DNA of 64,000 bases. Origin: Nevskia sp. Lineage in GTDB: Bacteria; Pseudomonadota; Gammaproteobacteria; Nevskiales; Nevskiaceae. The notes under the pieces are model-generated. The model saw nothing but the letters and a program-made list of their open reading frames with translations, ran no database searches and was not told the origin of the DNA. This document shows positions 1-7,100 of this stretch, piece by piece (the stretch's first letter is position 1; every line of letters begins with the position of its first letter). Location: the NCBI GenBank assembly GCA_031291075.1, contig JARLJS010000186.1, forward strand, positions 1 through 64,000, read 5' to 3'. The translations under genes and the position numbers were made by a program.

Positions 1-507
1 ACGCGCGAGGTCGCGGTCGGCGACAGGCTGCGCGTCACCGGCAATGATCGGGCACTCGGCATCCGCAACGGTGAACCCGGCGTGGTCGAGTCCGTGTCGG
101 GCGACACAATCGAATTGCGCGCGCCTGACGGGACTCGTAAGCAACTCAAGACTGATCGAGTCCTACCCGTCGAACACGGCTACGCAGCGACCGGCCACAG
201 CGCCCAGGGCCTCGGCGCCGATCGCGTGCTGCTCGATAAGGATACGCGTGTGCGGACGACGGATCACCGAAGCTTCTATACCGATCTGACCCGCGCCAAG
301 CACCAAGCCATCGTTTACACCAATGACCGCCAAGCTTTGCCCAAGGCCATCGCGCGGCAGTCGCAGAAAGCAGCGGCGCTCGATGTTTCGGGTGCGGGTT
401 CCGGGCGCAGTCACACCAACACACCTGCGGGCGGCCCGTCCGCAGCCAATACGAAGCAGCAATCCGCGAGCCAGCGCGCCGCGCAGCAGACACCGAATGG
501 GATGTGA
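1..507 (+). CDS. Conjugative relaxase/helicase (MobF/TraA type), C-terminal fragment
   Basis: The open frame runs in from the left edge, so only about the last 168 residues are present. They match the C-terminal RecD-like helicase half of MobF relaxases. The stretch HGYAATGHSAQGLGADRVLL (residues about 59-78) is the late helicase motif, and SFYTDLTRAKHQAIVYTND (about 91-109) is the usual motif VI region with its TRAK core. The last 40 residues are a low-complexity Ala/Gln/Ser tail. In the full protein the missing N-terminal part would nick and covalently bind the transfer origin, and the helicase would unwind the transferred strand. With the downstream AlpA-like gene and the integrase at 2038-3264 it marks an integrated conjugative or mobilizable element. 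Confidence 0.8.
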   Translation, partial: TREVAVGDRLRVTGNDRALGIRNGEPGVVESVSGDTIELRAPDGTRKQLKTDRVLPVEHGYAATGHSAQGLGADRVLLDKDTRVRTTDHRSFYTDLTRAKHQAIVYTNDRQALPKAIARQSQKAAALDVSGAGSGRSHTNTPAGGPSAANTKQQSASQRAAQQTPNGM

Positions 508-1109: not shown

Positions 1110-1562
1110 TCACTTTTGAAGTGCATACGGAATTATGGTGTCCTCGCTACTTTCAAATAAGGGACCCAGAAGTCTGTGATCGTTTGTCAAAATAAAGTAA
1201 TCGGGCGCAAGTCTGACTAGAGAGCTGTCTGCTATGCCGAATTCCAAAAAACAATCTGAGTCACAGTCTTTGTCAATTTCGATATCAACTGTTTTGAATA
1301 TCCCGCAAAAAAAAGTTTGCGCAACCTTGTATGCAAGCCGTCTAGCGTGCCCATTCAAATCAATTAGGTTGGACACTTCTGTGGCAATGTACGGCGTAAT
1401 AAAGACTTCGTCGTGCTGGGATATTATCTTTACGACGTTGTCATAGTCAGAGATGCTGAACCCATTTAACCGATTTGAGTTGCGAATATGCCTGCCACCT
1501 TCCACTGCGCCAATTACTAGAAGCAATAGGAGATTGGTGTCAATTATCAGTCGCCTCGACAT
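1110..1562 (-). CDS. PIN-domain protein (putative ribonuclease)
   Basis: This 150-residue protein has the acidic residues expected of an active PIN nuclease: Asp8 in LIIDTN, Glu62 in IATEVSNL, Asp112 in GIADSS and the TND triad at 126-128. PIN domains are Mg-dependent RNases, common in VapC-type toxins but also in processing enzymes. The coding region is clearly more AT-rich than the surrounding chromosome. It lies 5 bp downstream of a small gene (1568-1876) and is probably co-transcribed with it, next to the integrase, where mobile elements usually carry cargo. The upstream partner does not look like a standard DNA-binding antitoxin, so a toxin role is only an inference. Confidence 0.7.
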   Translation of the reverse strand: MSRRLIIDTNLLLLLVIGAVEGGRHIRNSNRLNGFSISDYDNVVKIISQHDEVFITPYIATEVSNLIDLNGHARRLAYKVAQTFFCGIFKTVDIEIDKDCDSDCFLEFGIADSSLVRLAPDYFILTNDHRLLGPLFESSEDTIIPYALQK

Positions 1563-1567
1563 AATAA

Positions 1568-1876
1568 TTAGCTATTGCTCTGACTCTTGAACCCCCTAAA
1601 TTTGGCGGTACGACTGTCGACTAAGAAGACCTTATTTTCTCTTCGGTAGCTCAAGATCTTCGCAAGCTGACGTAGGCCACTTGTTCCTGCGATCCCTCTG
1701 TCGGGATTCTCTATGCCAAGAGGATCTTTCCCTTGGATGTCATAGCTTAGAGAAACCTCATACATTTTATTGTCATCAGACAACAACACGCCCTCCAGCA
1801 CGAAATTAGTAGCATTTGTAATTAGCGATCTCGCGTTCGTGTTGGCGACGCTTATTGCTTCCTCGAAACCAATCAT
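1568..1876 (-). CDS. Small protein of unknown function, partner of the PIN-domain gene
   Basis: The protein has 102 residues and is not recognised by name. It has an N-terminal helix (GFEEAISVANTNARSLI), then strand-rich stretches FVLEGVLLSDDNKMYEVSLSY and NKVFLVDSRTAKFRGFK. A helix followed by strands, ending in a value-is-passed-on motif, resembles the general plan of PepSY-like folds; this is an impression from pattern only. There is no helix-turn-helix, ribbon-helix-helix, signal peptide or membrane segment. It is AT-rich like the PIN gene, whose start follows its stop by 5 bp, so the two form one transcription unit reading towards the AlpA gene. It could be an antitoxin, a substrate adaptor or unrelated. 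Confidence 0.6.
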   Translation of the reverse strand: MIGFEEAISVANTNARSLITNATNFVLEGVLLSDDNKMYEVSLSYDIQGKDPLGIENPDRGIAGTSGLRQLAKILSYRRENKVFLVDSRTAKFRGFKSQSNS

Positions 1877-2037
1877 AAATATCCTTCTGGCCGATCTGAG
1901 TCACTTGCCTTTAAATTGTGAAAGGCCGCTCCGCAGCCCACTGCCGCCGATTGTAGCAAGGCAGGCCGGGTCCACCTTCAAAAATGAAGTCTGCCGTACA
2001 CTGGAGGCCCACCATCACGGAGTTCGCCACACCTAGG

Positions 2038-3264
2038 CTATGCGGCCTTTTTCGACCTAATGGAAACAACCTTGTCAGCGCCCCGGATCAGGCTATCCAG
2101 ATAGTCGGCCCACTCCTGCATCATCGCCTTGCGCTTCGCCAAGTGCTTGGCTTGGTTGTAACTGGCCCGAGTTGCATTTCGCTCCTGATGGTCAAGTTGG
2201 CGCTCGATGAGGTCTTCGTCGAAATCCATCTCGTTCATCAACGTACTTGCGGTCGCGCGGAACCCATGCGCGGAGAACTTTCCCCTGAATCCGATATTCG
2301 CAAGAGCCTGGTTCAAGGTCGTGGAAGCCATGAAGGACTTCGGGCGGCGGATATTCGGGAAAAGATAGTCTCGGTCGCCCGTAAGGCGGTGTAGTTCACG
2401 AATGACGCCAACTGCCTGCCGCGACAGAGGGACAATGTGTGTATCCCGCATCTTCATGATCGGAGCAGGAATCCGCCACTCTGCCGCATCCAGATCAATC
2501 TGGTCCCACTGGGCGCGGCGAACTTCGCCGGGGCGGACGAATGTGAGCAGCAGAAGACGAAGCGCGGCAACGGTAACAGGCGAACCACCGTAGTTCGCAA
2601 GCTTTCCGACCAGGACGGGGATGTCCTTCTTATCCAGTGGGGTTTTATGCTTGATGCGAGGCCGTTCGACTACTCCGCGCAGTGCATACGTCGGATCGTT
2701 CTCGGCACGCAAAGTGAGGATCGAATAGCGAAACACGCTGCCGCATAGTTCCTGCACTAGCAAGGCCGTTACTGGAGCGGGACGCTTTGGCCGCTTTGCG
2801 ATGTTCCGAATCAGCGGCAGCAACCGAGCAGATGAGATTTCCTTGATCGGAAGCGCGCCAATTTCGGGAAAGACTTCCTTTTCGAGGGTGCGCTTCACTC
2901 GCTTGTGACGCACTTCGGACCACTTCACCGACTTGTGATCCATCCATTCGCGAGCCACTGCCTCGAAGGTGTTGTTGGCTTCGTTTGCTTGCCGCAGATG
3001 AACTTCCTGCCGCTGCCGCACCGGATGGACGCCTTGCTTGACGAGCGCTCTCGCCTTGTCGCGCGCCTCGCGTGCCTGGGCCAGCGAAACCATCGGGTAG
3101 TCACCGATCGAGTACAGGCCTTCTTTGCCATGCAGCCAGAAACGGTAGCGCCACAGTTTCGACCCGTTGGGCGAGACAAACAAAAACAAGCCCAACCCGT
3201 CCATCAATTTGTAGGGCTTTTCCTTGGGCTTTGCGTTCCGAATCTTGGTGTCTGTGAGTGACAT
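2038..3264 (-). CDS. P4-type tyrosine site-specific integrase
   Basis: The protein has 408 residues. The N-terminal 90 residues are the DUF4102 arm-type DNA-binding domain (DGLGLFLFVSPNGSKLWRYR, then YSIGDYPMVSLAQAREARD). A core-binding SAM-like domain follows, then the catalytic domain with Arg in FVRPGEVRRAQW, the HxxR box in SAHGFRATAST, His in RQLDHQ, and the nucleophile Tyr in RASYNQAKH near the C-terminus. Length and layout match P4-family integrases, which insert genomic islands, often at tRNA genes. The start lies about 100 bp from direct repeats at 3361-3438, so the element boundary is probably just upstream of this gene. No tRNA is visible at the junction. Confidence 0.93.
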   Translation of the reverse strand: MSLTDTKIRNAKPKEKPYKLMDGLGLFLFVSPNGSKLWRYRFWLHGKEGLYSIGDYPMVSLAQAREARDKARALVKQGVHPVRQRQEVHLRQANEANNTFEAVAREWMDHKSVKWSEVRHKRVKRTLEKEVFPEIGALPIKEISSARLLPLIRNIAKRPKRPAPVTALLVQELCGSVFRYSILTLRAENDPTYALRGVVERPRIKHKTPLDKKDIPVLVGKLANYGGSPVTVAALRLLLLTFVRPGEVRRAQWDQIDLDAAEWRIPAPIMKMRDTHIVPLSRQAVGVIRELHRLTGDRDYLFPNIRRPKSFMASTTLNQALANIGFRGKFSAHGFRATASTLMNEMDFDEDLIERQLDHQERNATRASYNQAKHLAKRKAMMQEWADYLDSLIRGADKVVSIRSKKAA

Positions 3265-3306
3265 GAGCGTCGGCCTCCGCGTAGTCGGCCGACACTAAAA
3301 CGCACA

Positions 3307-3342
3307 TTGGGTATCGGCTTCGATACCCCAATTTATACCCCA
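3307..3342. promoter_or_regulatory. Inverted repeat and ATACCCC iterons upstream of integrase
   Basis: Upstream of the integrase start, GGGTATCG (3309-3316) and CGATACCC (3321-3328) form an 8-bp inverted repeat with a 4-nt spacer. A second ATACCCC copy follows around 3335-3341. Repeated ATACCCC boxes just upstream of P4-type integrase genes fit arm-type sites or an autoregulatory operator. That role is inferred from position. Confidence 0.5.
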
Positions 3343-3360
3343 CTTTGCCTCCGGATGCCA

Positions 3361-3438
3361 CCGGACGACGTCGGATCAATTAGAATAATAACATATTGAT
3401 TTCAATCCATTTTGCGTCGTGAGCCGGACGACATCGGA
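3361..3438. repeat. 15-bp direct repeats at the probable element junction
   Basis: CCGGACGACGTCGGA at 3361-3375 recurs as CCGGACGACATCGGA at 3424-3438, with one mismatch. The intervening 48 bp are AT-rich (TAGAATAATAACATATTGAT and on), unlike the GC-rich DNA that begins after 3440. Position and composition suggest the attachment-site region of the integrated element. From 3439 to 3657 there is GC-rich DNA with no convincing gene; it leads into trkH. Confidence 0.4.
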
Positions 3439-3657
3439 CTGTCTCGGAAGCCAATAAACGCCTTTGGTGAAGACCGACATGGGCGAAAACGGTGCGGGGA
3501 GAGAGGGTCATTGTGCCGGAGCCGTCCCGCCGCAGTCGACAGCGGCCGCGCACACCGGCCGCCGCCGCCGGCCGTCCACCCGCACCGCCGCGCGCTGGCG
3601 GGCCCGGCGGCCGGCGAGTGTAAACTGCGCGCTCTTGGCTGATCGGGAAGAGCGCGG

Positions 3658-5118
3658 TTGTTCAAGGACCTGCTGCACATCGTCAATCCGCTGGGCCTGC
3701 TGCTGATGGCGTTCGCCTCCGCCTACGCCGCGCCGGTGGCCGCCGCCCTGCTCTACGGCGATGGCGCGCTGCGCCCCTTTGCGCTGGCCGGTGCGGCCGA
3801 TCTGCTGATCGGCCTCGCGCTGTGGCGCTTCACCCGCCCGTTCGCGCGCGACCTCAAGTCCCGCGACGGCTACCTGCTGGTGGCGCTGGCCTGGATCCTC
3901 ACCGCCGCCTCGGCCGCCGTGCCGCTCCTGCTGTCGGTCCCGGGGCTGTCGTTCAGCCAGGCCTACTTCGAGGCCATGTCCGGCGTCACCACCAGCGGCG
4001 CCACCGTGCTGAGCGGCATCGACGACCTGCCCCACGCGGTCAAGCTGTGGCGCCACGAGCTGAGCTGGCTCGGCGGCCTCGGCATCATCACCCTGGCGAT
4101 GGCGGTGCTGCCGCTGCTGGGTGTCGGCGGCATGCAGGTGTACCGCGCCGAGGGCACCGGGCCGATCAAGGAAAGCCGCCTCACGCCGCGCGTGATCCAG
4201 ACCTTGCGCTCGCTGTGGGCGATCTACTGCGGGCTCACCCTGGCCTGCCTGCTGCTGCTGCGCCTGGCCGGCATGGACTGGTTCGACGCGCTCTGCCACG
4301 CGCTGTCGGTGCTGTCGCTGAGCGGCTTCTCCACCCACGACGCCGGCATCGCCTACTTCCAGTCGCCGCTGATCGAGCTGGTGCTGATCGTGTTCATGCT
4401 GCTCGCCGGCATCAACTTCGCCACCCACTACATGGCCTGGCGCGGCCGCAGCCTCAAGGCCTACCGCCGCGACGTGGAAGCGCGCGCGCTGCTGCTGGTG
4501 GTGCTGGCGAGCGGCCTGCTGCTGACCGCGTACCTGTGGTATCGCGGCGTGTATCCAAGCGCCTGGACCGCGCTGCGCCACGCCTCCTTCAACCTGGTGT
4601 CGATGGTCACCAACTGCGGCCTGGTCAGCGCCGACTACGGCCGCTGGCCGCTGTTCGCCGGCATGTCGATGGTGGTGCTGTCCTGCGTCGCCGCCTCGGG
4701 CGGCTCCACCGGCGGCGGCATCAAGATGCTGCGCACCCTGATCCTGTTCAAACAGAGCTCGCGCGAGCTGTACTCGCTGGTGCATCCCACCGCGGTCCAC
4801 ACGCTCAAGGTCGGCGGCCAGGTGATCAGCGAACGCGCGGCGCTGTCGGTGTTCGCCTTCGTGCACCTCTACACGGTGACCGTGATGGTGCTGAGCCTGC
4901 TGCTGATCCTGAGCGGCATGGACCTGCTCACGGCCATGTCCGGGGCCATCGCCATGGTCAACAACGGCGCGCATGGGCTGGGGGCGCTGGGGCCTTCGCA
5001 CACGTTTGCGGCGCTGGACGGGTTTCAGACCTGGGTGTGCACGTTCGGCATGCTGGCGGGGCGGCTGGAGTTGTTCATGATCCTGGTGCCGTTGACGCCG
5101 GCGTTCTGGCGGGAGTGA
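3658..5118 (+). CDS. trkH: Trk-type potassium uptake membrane subunit TrkH
   Basis: This 486-residue inner-membrane protein has the four pore loops of the Trk/Ktr family: SGVTTSGATVLSG, SLSGFSTHDAG, SMVTNCGLVS and AMVNNGAHGLG, each carrying the selectivity-filter glycine. Multiple hydrophobic helices fill the rest. The length matches TrkH (about 483). TrkH forms the K+ pathway and needs the cytoplasmic NAD-binding partner TrkA, which is encoded at 7270-8649 in the opposite direction. The first in-frame start that keeps the conserved N-terminus (FKDLLHIVNPLGLLLM) is TTG at 3658. The two Trk genes are separated by a 2.1-kb repeat-bracketed insertion. Confidence 0.93.
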   Translation: MFKDLLHIVNPLGLLLMAFASAYAAPVAAALLYGDGALRPFALAGAADLLIGLALWRFTRPFARDLKSRDGYLLVALAWILTAASAAVPLLLSVPGLSFSQAYFEAMSGVTTSGATVLSGIDDLPHAVKLWRHELSWLGGLGIITLAMAVLPLLGVGGMQVYRAEGTGPIKESRLTPRVIQTLRSLWAIYCGLTLACLLLLRLAGMDWFDALCHALSVLSLSGFSTHDAGIAYFQSPLIELVLIVFMLLAGINFATHYMAWRGRSLKAYRRDVEARALLLVVLASGLLLTAYLWYRGVYPSAWTALRHASFNLVSMVTNCGLVSADYGRWPLFAGMSMVVLSCVAASGGSTGGGIKMLRTLILFKQSSRELYSLVHPTAVHTLKVGGQVISERAALSVFAFVHLYTVTVMVLSLLLILSGMDLLTAMSGAIAMVNNGAHGLGALGPSHTFAALDGFQTWVCTFGMLAGRLELFMILVPLTPAFWRE

Positions 5119-5261: not shown

Positions 5262-5576
5262 CCGCCATAAATGGCGGGTCACTTTTTGTCTACAGCGACA
5301 AAAAGTAACCAAAAAGCGCCGCCCCGGAGCCTGCGCCGATCAATCGCGAAAAGAAGAAGCGCGATTGATCGGTTCCCTGCGCTTCTCGCCCATGGCGGGT
5401 TCCGCCGACAGGCCATCCCTGGCCTGACGGCGGAAGCTTCGGCATCCTGCCTCGCCCCGCGCCAAGCAGGCGCGGGCTCACGTCCGCCATGGGCTGCGAT
5501 GCTCGGCGCAGACAACGGGGAGGAACGTCAAAAGCGAACTGCTCAGGTCGGAACCGCTGCGCGGTTCCGACTACAT
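5262..5576 (+). repeat. Multi-hairpin structured repeat element, copy 1
   Basis: About 310 nt of non-coding DNA built from nested hairpins. The arms are 5262-5268/5271-5277; 5281-5290/5297-5306 (10 bp); 5336-5348/5360-5372 (13 bp); a long-range stem 5388-5398/5484-5494 (11 bp) enclosing 5401-5414/5421-5434 (13 pairs around one A-A mismatch) and 5456-5463/5469-5476 (8 bp); and 5547-5557/5561-5571 (11 bp). A second, inverted copy lies at 6806-7100 and keeps every stem except the first while changing the paired bases together. Overlapping short ORFs on both strands are not genes. The stretch 5577-5734 between this element and the next gene contains no ORF, only a GTTAGAC box at 5679-5685. Confidence 0.8.
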
Positions 5577-5734
5577 GACTCAATAGTCCGTGAGTTGGTT
5601 TGGCCTGTCGCGAAAAATTGATCCGTTCTAATATGACGTAGTCGCGCGATATCAGGGAGTTGCCCGTTGAATTGCTACGTTAGACCGCAAGTTCGGCGCC
5701 ATCCTGCACGGTTCAATCAGGGTGAGGCCTCCAA

Positions 5735-6112
5735 GTGAAGCTCCTTCCTACGCAGACGGACGAGATCTCTCTCTCCGCCCTTGGCGAGGAAGCGAGCTTC
5801 ATGCTCATGCGGCACGACTTTTCAACGTTGGCGGATAGGTTTGGCTATGTCCTCGCGCATGGTCGCGAGACCGCGGCGGCTATCGAAGCTGACTACTTAG
5901 GGGCCGCGGCGTTGCCCCGTAAAGCAGAATCAAACGAGCGCCCGTCGATTGTGGTGAAGTATTTCAACCCGAATAGCACGGGCTTGTTTGCGGTGGTCGA
6001 GTGTAGTGTCCCTGTGGCCGTCGGTGGCGCCGTCCTTCTGGAGCTCATAGTTACCGGGAAGGGAGAAGAGAAACACATCACTGTGGAGGACATCAGCGGT
6101 GTTTCTGCATAG
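5735..6112 (+). CDS. Hypothetical protein, cassette-like gene 1
   Basis: The protein has 125 residues and is not recognised. It has a helical N-terminal half (FSTLADRFGYVLAHGRETAAAIEADYL) and a strand-rich C-terminal half ending KGEEKHITVEDISGVSA. No signal peptide or membrane helix is seen. Its base composition is less GC-biased than the flanking trk genes. The stop codon is followed at once by GCCCAAC (6113-6119), which fits the 5-prime core box (RYYYAAC) of integron attC sites. A GTTAGAC box lies 49 bp before the start. It is bracketed with the next gene by inverted repeats. The small size and alpha/beta look would fit an immunity-like or cassette-encoded protein, but no function can be assigned. 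Confidence 0.55.
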   Translation: MKLLPTQTDEISLSALGEEASFMLMRHDFSTLADRFGYVLAHGRETAAAIEADYLGAAALPRKAESNERPSIVVKYFNPNSTGLFAVVECSVPVAVGGAVLLELIVTGKGEEKHITVEDISGVSA

Positions 6113-6773: not shown

Positions 6774-6805
6774 TGCACTACTACACTGCACCTTATCATT
6801 CCATG

Positions 6806-7100
6806 TAGTCGGAACCGCGCAGCGGTTCCGACTTGAGCAGTTCGCTTTTGACGTTCCCCCCGTTGGCTGCGCCGAGCATCGCAGCCCGCGGCGGTATGGG
6901 CCGGCGCGTGTGTTCGCGCCGGGCGAGGCAGGATGCCGAAGCGTCCACCGTCAGGCCAGGGATGGCCTGTCGGTGGACCCCGCCGCGGGCGAGAAGCACA
7001 GGGAACTCTCTCATCGCGCTTTTGCTTCTTGCGATGAGAGGGCGCAGCCGTTGGGGCGGCGTTTCTTGCCTACTTCTTGTCGCTGTTGACAAGAAGTAGG
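6806..7100 (-). repeat. Multi-hairpin structured repeat element, copy 2 (inverted)
   Basis: This is the complementary-strand copy of the element at 5262-5576. Stems in plus-strand coordinates are 6808-6818/6822-6832; the long-range stem 6884-6894/6980-6990; 6901-6908/6915-6922; 6944-6957/6964-6977; 7008-7017/7031-7040; and 7070-7081/7088-7099. Short conserved single-stranded tracts such as GACGTTCCCCCCGTTG and GAGCATCGCAGC also recur. Compared with copy 1 the stems differ by paired substitutions, so the fold is kept. From 7101 to 7217 the sequence holds no gene. Confidence 0.8.

Follow-up and report, generated by a model that had tools for sequence, protein, structure and literature searches.

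The analysed window is a stretch of 64,000 nucleotides from the genome of a Nevskia sp. (contig JARLJS010000186.1, positions 1–64,000, forward strand). Near its left end, two small genes on the minus strand lie between an AlpA-family gene and a gene for a P4-type integrase. This setting had been proposed in an earlier sequence-only reading and agrees with the Pfam matches, and the coordinates given there for the pair, including the gap of 5 bp between its genes, were reproduced in the ORF list. The following features were located in this region:

82–507, plus strand: C-terminal piece of a UvrD_C_2 helicase-type protein (PF13538, E 1.6e-7), truncated by the contig start
549–1019, plus strand: AlpA-family gene (PF05930, E 1.4e-18; excisionase/regulator matches in PHROGs)
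1110–1562, minus strand: PIN-domain protein, ORF of 150 aa with an ATG start; second gene of the pair, candidate toxin RNase
1568–1876, minus strand: partner gene, ORF of 102 aa with an ATG start; first gene of the pair, candidate antitoxin
2038–3264, minus strand: P4-type tyrosine integrase (PF13356, PF22022 and PF00589; phrog_1 integrase, E 1.6e-67)
3462–3489, minus strand: probable right boundary of the element, coinciding with a thrB-like gene start and taken as a putative attachment site (short weak matches)

The AlpA domain occupies residues 96–144 of the 549–1019 ORF, when this ORF is taken from its first ATG. The AT-richness noted earlier for the pair was borne out, its GC content being 43.7% versus 68.0% for window positions 3600–64000; the flanking AlpA and integrase genes have a GC content of 60.5% and 57.0%, respectively. 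Since the first base of the window is also the first base of a 123-kb contig (C69), the element is incomplete on its left side; the UvrD_C_2 piece is presumed to be a part of it.

The right end of the element is probably located near positions 3462–3489. This stretch resembles the sequence upstream of a trkH-like gene in five of the seven same-genus loci (weak matches, E 3e-4 to 0.013), and in the locus L151 the matching stretch is the start of a homoserine-kinase-like ORF. Note that the names thrB for this ORF and trkH for the neighbouring gene are our own presumptive assignments. The genome of the window has its thrB-like gene on a different contig, at the very start of it (C53:1–930). The presence of a thrB-like start at the end of the element, together with a full copy beginning at base 1 of C53, suggests that the element was integrated at the 5' end of thrB and that the assembly was broken at the other end of the element. 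An HMM search for the PIN gene in 17 other genomes of the same genus found it in none of them. Elsewhere in the window, an inverted dispersed repeat is suggested by the translated ORFs at about 5280–5620 and 6800–7100, which looked alike by eye, with one on each strand.

Each of the two proteins was searched singly against known families. Neither gave a match above the cut-offs in Pfam or NCBIfam or any match in PHROGs, the best E value against the PDB was about 0.7, and no family of PADLOC-DB 2.0.0 was matched by either protein at E up to 1. Thus, the single proteins of the window gave no signal, and all of the signal for the pair came from family alignments and models. The alignments comprised 65 rows for the partner (A7) and 64 rows for the PIN protein (A8), with damaged copies, near-duplicates and the loci L002–L011 set aside. 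The Pfam PIN model was matched by 2 of the 64 PIN relatives (best E 0.0041). Stray Pfam and NCBIfam matches of lone relatives (DUF5495, DUF188 and others, in 1–2 of the 64 members) were discarded as chance or distant PIN-like similarity. In the annotated records inspected, the members of the pair are named "hypothetical" and "PIN domain-containing".

The PIN nuclease fold is very common among toxins. The acidic residues ascribed to the window PIN protein in the earlier reading, namely D8, E62, D112 and D128, are all present in its sequence. In the 64-row alignment, from which damaged copies and some near-duplicates were excluded, the first three are conserved in 64/64 rows and D128 in 63/64; the residues T9, N10, R31 and T56 are likewise invariant (64/64). 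The AlphaFold 2 model of the protein had a pLDDT of 96.5. The VIA list for this model was led by PIN/VapC chains (best Z 12.1, rmsd 2.4, 116 residues aligned), with VapC chains scoring at Z of about 10–12, and the best Foldseek match was a chain of a VapBC complex (E 1.2e-3, probability 1.00). RohQ, which is not named as a PIN protein, also scored Z 11.1 with VIA, and the PIN domains of rRNA processing (Utp24 and pre-ribosome chains) were found at Z 8–9. The fold predicted for the window protein is thus that of a VapC-like PIN domain.

The partner was modeled with a pLDDT of 87.1, residues 51–70 having values near 60. The sequence-only reading had stated that this protein is not a recognizable VapB, RHH or HTH antitoxin and that it has a different fold plan, and both statements held, the former for the window copy and in a Pfam scan of 65 members. 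The model consists of a helix, two strands, a short helix and two further strands. Its best natural VIA match was 4exr (Z 10.1, rmsd 1.5, 59 aligned), which we take to be a PepSY protein, followed by YpmB (2gu3; Z 8.8, rmsd 1.9, 60 aligned), YpeB (5boi; Z 8.4, rmsd 2.5, 64 aligned) and the vibriolysin propeptide (3nqz; Z 7.3, rmsd 3.5, 71 aligned). Two designed sheet proteins scored alike (Z 9.9 and 9.7), and Foldseek gave no match at E 0.001 or better; therefore, the PepSY fold of the partner is better supported than membership in the PepSY family. The 65 members matched 14 Pfam families at E up to 0.1, of which PepSY (PF03413) was the commonest, with weak matches in 13 members (best E 0.0016) and none in the window copy. 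RHH, AbrB and Phd were absent from these 14 families, and a weak match to an HTH model (P-element transposase, E 0.011) was found in one member. According to the model, the partner would have a PepSY/cystatin-like fold.

Several positions of the partner are strongly conserved: E28 is invariant (65/65 rows), and the basic positions R79, K82 and K97 carry K or R in 64, 65 and 62 of the 65 rows, respectively. A signal peptide was not evident by eye, and the partner is apparently a small cytoplasmic protein. Autoregulation by the partner is unsupported, because no DNA-binding domain was recognized in it and no inverted repeat was found at window positions 1870–2060.

The check proposed with the earlier reading, which would have been answered negatively if the two families did not co-occur elsewhere, did not refute that reading, as the two genes were found side by side in many other genomes. 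Pairing HMMs were built from 13 sequences of the partner and 12 of PIN. Genome contigs were also scanned, and the best 80 of the 97 relatives found were kept; these 80 did not contribute to the HMMs. A match to the partner HMM was found just upstream of the PIN gene in all 93 non-window loci, the 80 included (E 7.5e-14 to 5e-36); L001 and L007 among the pair loci correspond to the window itself. When 398 Pseudomonadota genomes were searched separately with a PIN HMM (5 rows) and a partner HMM (65 rows), both recovered the same three genomes, the window included, and at the same places. A PIN HMM search of 61 relatives gave three matches, of which one was the window and one was false. The candidate PIN homologue G033/L009 is interrupted by stops and was left out of all counts; the ORFs around it are presumably dnaA and dnaN.

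From 36 of the 80 loci, 35 genomes were reached; the partner gene was found at 40 places in them, and 39 of these had an adjacent PIN gene (the split PIN gene of G490 was counted once). Of the 40 places, 37 were known loci and three were new, two being paired and one alone. Three partner copies are present in one Chromatiaceae genome (G458): L131 and L133 are paired, and L130 (G458:C211) is alone. Among 254 cyanobacterial genomes drawn around one known carrier, the partner was found in at least 10 genomes, PIN in at least 9 and both in 8; the partner-only places were inspected directly, and lone PIN genes may be missed, because at most 20 and 14 candidates per genome were scored.

Matches in mobile elements were few. 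A tblastn search with the window PIN protein matched 5 of 72,556 plasmid records; these are from cyanobacteria, and each has a gene of about 96–100 aa just upstream of the PIN gene. Two other PIN queries recovered the same five records. The same PIN query matched none of 50,697 phage records. The window partner query found nothing in the plasmid or phage records and missed its own five plasmid counterparts, which indicates that single-sequence searches reach little and that an absence in them is weak evidence. Five pair loci are located on viral contigs, one of which (L012) has GemA, Mor and amidase genes beside the pair and is a Mu-like prophage. Further viral scans revealed no new viral contig and recovered those of L014 and L015 once more. 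In these two contigs, the pair is followed by a gene for a 190-aa protein (1215–1787 in L014 and 4704–5276 in L015), the L014 copy of which gave no Pfam match. When a Klebsiella pair was used as query in a distant DNA search, which detects DNA similarity only, none of the E. coli genomes searched gave a match.

Phylogenetic analysis of the 64 PIN rows placed the window copy in a clade of 13 rows (100/99), whose other members are ten rows from Pseudomonadota and two from viral contigs. By record title, nine phyla are represented in the tree; single labels may be wrong, because many of the records are MAG bins. The distance matrices of the PIN and partner proteins were correlated (r 0.86, with 0 of 2000 permutations as high), a value that is confounded by shared descent. 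The pair is real, and its spread is broad but sparse; we infer that it has spread horizontally.

The two genes are tightly coupled. Among 91 distinct loci, window included, a 4-nt overlap is present in 63, and the spacing does not exceed 21 nt in 90; the gene starts were picked by a script, which gave no PIN start for L023, L062 and L093, and the window is listed twice in the raw table. The GC content of the pair was below that of the rest of its own locus in 87/87 loci, compared with 75 of 256 control genes. The pair fell in the lowest quarter of windows of the same length in all 87 loci and in the lowest tenth in 75.

The neighbourhoods of the pair are varied. With genes called by a simple longest-ORF script, the most frequent neighbour cluster was found in 12 of the 93 loci and none in more. 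This cluster (c0) is made up of DUF499 proteins together with a linked protein of some 142 aa, and a second one (c1, DUF1156) was found in 11 loci, the loci of both clusters being all cyanobacterial. One or both are present in 16 of the 93 loci (L002–L005, L031, L032, L034, L037, L040, L041, L050, L052, L071, L083, L095 and L096), and seven of these also have a protein of unknown function of about 127–132 aa (cluster c3). DUF499 and DUF1156 genes belong to BREX-related systems (PMC12839542). They were rejected as the general system of the pair: within the stretch examined, the other 77 loci show neither, and therefore the pair is not a fixed part of such systems.

A Pfam scan of 113 of the 169 flanking proteins found 135 families, none in more than three members, a figure that understates repeats because repeats of similar loci, several DUF499-companion genes and proteins over 900 aa were omitted; the cluster count over the 93 loci is fairer. 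When ten flanking proteins were searched singly, eight gave matches: an AAA ATPase in one case, and proteins of metabolism, tRNA modification or transport in the other seven. The idea that the pair is cargo of integrative elements applies to the window and to the Mu-like prophage L012 and did not extend to the other inspected loci with their varied neighbours.

Two further neighbourhoods deserve mention. In L017, the closest relative of the window copy, a VgrG/baseplate-spike-like gene (3099–4745) lies directly downstream of the pair, which raises a T6SS effector–immunity reading. Another neighbour cluster (c2) was found near the pair in L048, L051, L054, L055, L058, L063, L064, L065, L074 and L081, that is, in nine Nostocaceae and one Chitinilyticum; the two members scanned were GatB by Pfam, and the gene beside the PIN remnant L144 is, as we take it, also gatB-like. 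There are hints that the c2 loci and L144 share one insertion, which may be decaying in some strains.

At eight loci, an intact partner was found with a damaged or missing PIN gene. The PIN gene has an early frameshift in L023 and an internal stop in L083, is interrupted in L094 by an insertion that carries a DDE transposase, and has a stop near the C-terminus in L065 that removes only about 21 final residues. No PIN gene was found beside the partner in L130, L134, L137 and L140, and an IS200-like transposase adjoins the partner of L134. The converse, an intact PIN gene lacking an intact partner, did not turn up among the candidates scored. L062 and L143 carry damage in both genes, and L144 retains just a PIN remnant. 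If loss were proportional to gene length, of which PIN makes up about 63%, the chance that all eight losses fall on PIN would be about 0.025, a value based on few cases. Note that L017–L096 were retrieved by an in-frame PIN motif, a requirement that works against finding damaged PIN genes. The losses look one-sided, in the direction expected of a toxin. In addition, the locus L093 (Omnitrophota) has an intact partner and a stop a few codons after the likely PIN start near 5983; this locus, which may reflect either a further PIN loss (the ninth) or a fault of the assembly, was not counted.

All these characteristics (the pairing and coupling of the genes, the predicted PIN fold with its acidic residues, the PepSY-like model of the partner, the sparse distribution, the AT-richness and the mostly PIN-sided loss) allow us to assume that the pair is probably a type II-like toxin–antitoxin system in which a PepSY/cystatin-like protein neutralizes a VapC-like PIN RNase. 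The two genes form a small operon and occur together, with the partner alone at four places. The second gene would encode a toxic RNase, and the product of the first would bind it directly and keep it inactive; the conserved basic residues R79, K82 and K97 could perhaps be set at the acidic pocket of the PIN protein, a suggestion that goes beyond the single-chain models. Growth would then stop once the PIN protein is released, whether by stress, by phage attack or because the element is lost. By analogy with the PIN-associated pairs described in a published survey (PMC2701414), the partner is most likely the antitoxin, and the direction of loss agrees with this. However, the low number of plasmid (5/72,556) and phage (0/50,697) matches is unusual for an addiction module. 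The benefit of the pair may be defence, stability of the mobile region, or both.

Several other explanations were considered. A canonical VapBC system, in which the partner would be a strongly divergent antitoxin of the RHH, AbrB, Phd or HTH type, would agree with the VapC-like PIN fold, with the order of the genes and with the one weak HTH match among the 65 members (P-element transposase, E 0.011). The modeled order of helix, strand, strand, helix, strand and strand, the PepSY proteins as best natural matches (Z 8.4–10.1) and the Pfam results, in which PepSY is the commonest family and RHH, AbrB and Phd do not occur, make it very improbable. The pair could also be a non-toxic RNase of two subunits, in which the partner would activate or direct a PIN nuclease of RNA processing. 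The pairing and the 4-nt overlaps suit a heteromeric enzyme too, and Utp24 and the pre-ribosome PIN chains are near the PIN model (Z 8–9). Eight loci that keep only an intact partner, with no case of partner-only loss seen, and a sparse, AT-rich module with no constant neighbour of RNA metabolism argue against such an enzyme, which we consider unlikely.

The explanation mechanically closest to a toxin–antitoxin pair, and partly overlapping with it, is a pair selected for phage defence by abortive infection, where a PepSY-like sensor would hold the PIN protein inactive until a phage product binds or removes the partner. The location of the window copy on a mobile element, the 16 cyanobacterial loci with DUF499-type (12) or DUF1156-type (11) clusters of BREX-related systems, and the matches of some of the 113 flanking proteins to candidate defence models are consistent with this possibility. 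On the other side, these clusters are missing from most of the 93 loci, a large number of flanking genes serve metabolism or transport, and PADLOC gave no match for the PIN protein or the partner of the window. A role selected for defence is regarded here as a less likely alternative to the toxin–antitoxin reading. As to the sequence-only reading, which had suggested a new toxin–antitoxin or defence pair carried as cargo, the co-occurrence of the genes and the non-VapB nature of the partner hold, while the framing as cargo is not general.

Among known systems, VapBC is the closest working analogue of the pair. Both have a PIN fold with four acidic residues and a small first gene tightly coupled to a second gene encoding the PIN protein. 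Unlike VapBC proteins, the window PIN protein falls in no curated family, and the partner is PepSY/cystatin-like in its model and has no recognized DNA-binding domain. Known PepSY proteins are mostly secreted or attached to the membrane and act on peptidases. The partner is similar to PepSY proteins such as YpmB, YpeB and the propeptides of M4 peptidases in its predicted fold and in the weak Pfam PepSY matches of 13/65 members. It differs from them in being tied to a nuclease and in having no evident signal peptide. A peptidase-inhibitor role of PepSY is stated in PMC6393860. Exceptions to DNA binding by the antitoxin and to autoregulation of the operon are also known, for example VapBC-1 (PMC4803016).

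The PIN-associated antitoxins of Makarova et al. 2009 (COG2442, COG2886, COG2880, COG1753 and a MerR-like one) are, according to section 9 of that survey, of the DNA-binding HTH, AbrB, RHH or MerR types, and none of those is PepSY-like (PMC2701414). In KreTA, a prophage toxin–antitoxin pair, the prediction is that a folded antitoxin shields the catalytic site of an RNase toxin; this toxin is RegB-like and not a PIN protein, and the antitoxin resembles another immunity protein fold (PMC12487901). As to the cyanobacterial BREX-related systems, DUF499 or DUF1156 clusters occur close to the pair in 16 loci, and neither was seen in the stretches examined at the other 77. NetFlax lists PIN toxins with the antitoxins RHH_6, SynP1, SpnP2/3 and others (PMC10440598), and one of these may be the same as the partner. 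No earlier description of the pair was found in the literature searched, which comprised sources other than subscription papers, preprints and the NetFlax supplement.

In summary, no convincing sequence match links the partner to VapB-type antitoxins, and its predicted fold is PepSY-like. We see about an even chance that the pair represents a toxin–antitoxin or defence class extending over many phyla, in which a folded single-domain PepSY/cystatin-like inhibitor silences a cytoplasmic VapC-like RNase; instead of repressing transcription, such an inhibitor would possibly sense a signal of phage attack or of stress. A PepSY/cystatin-like PIN partner in nine or more phyla would, if this is true, be a different solution to the control of a nuclease, and it would give a name to the roughly one hundred gene pairs found here. 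The role of PepSY would then widen from peptidases to nucleases, a fold that restrains peptidases having been put to a new use in the cytoplasm, the silencing of a VapC-like RNase.
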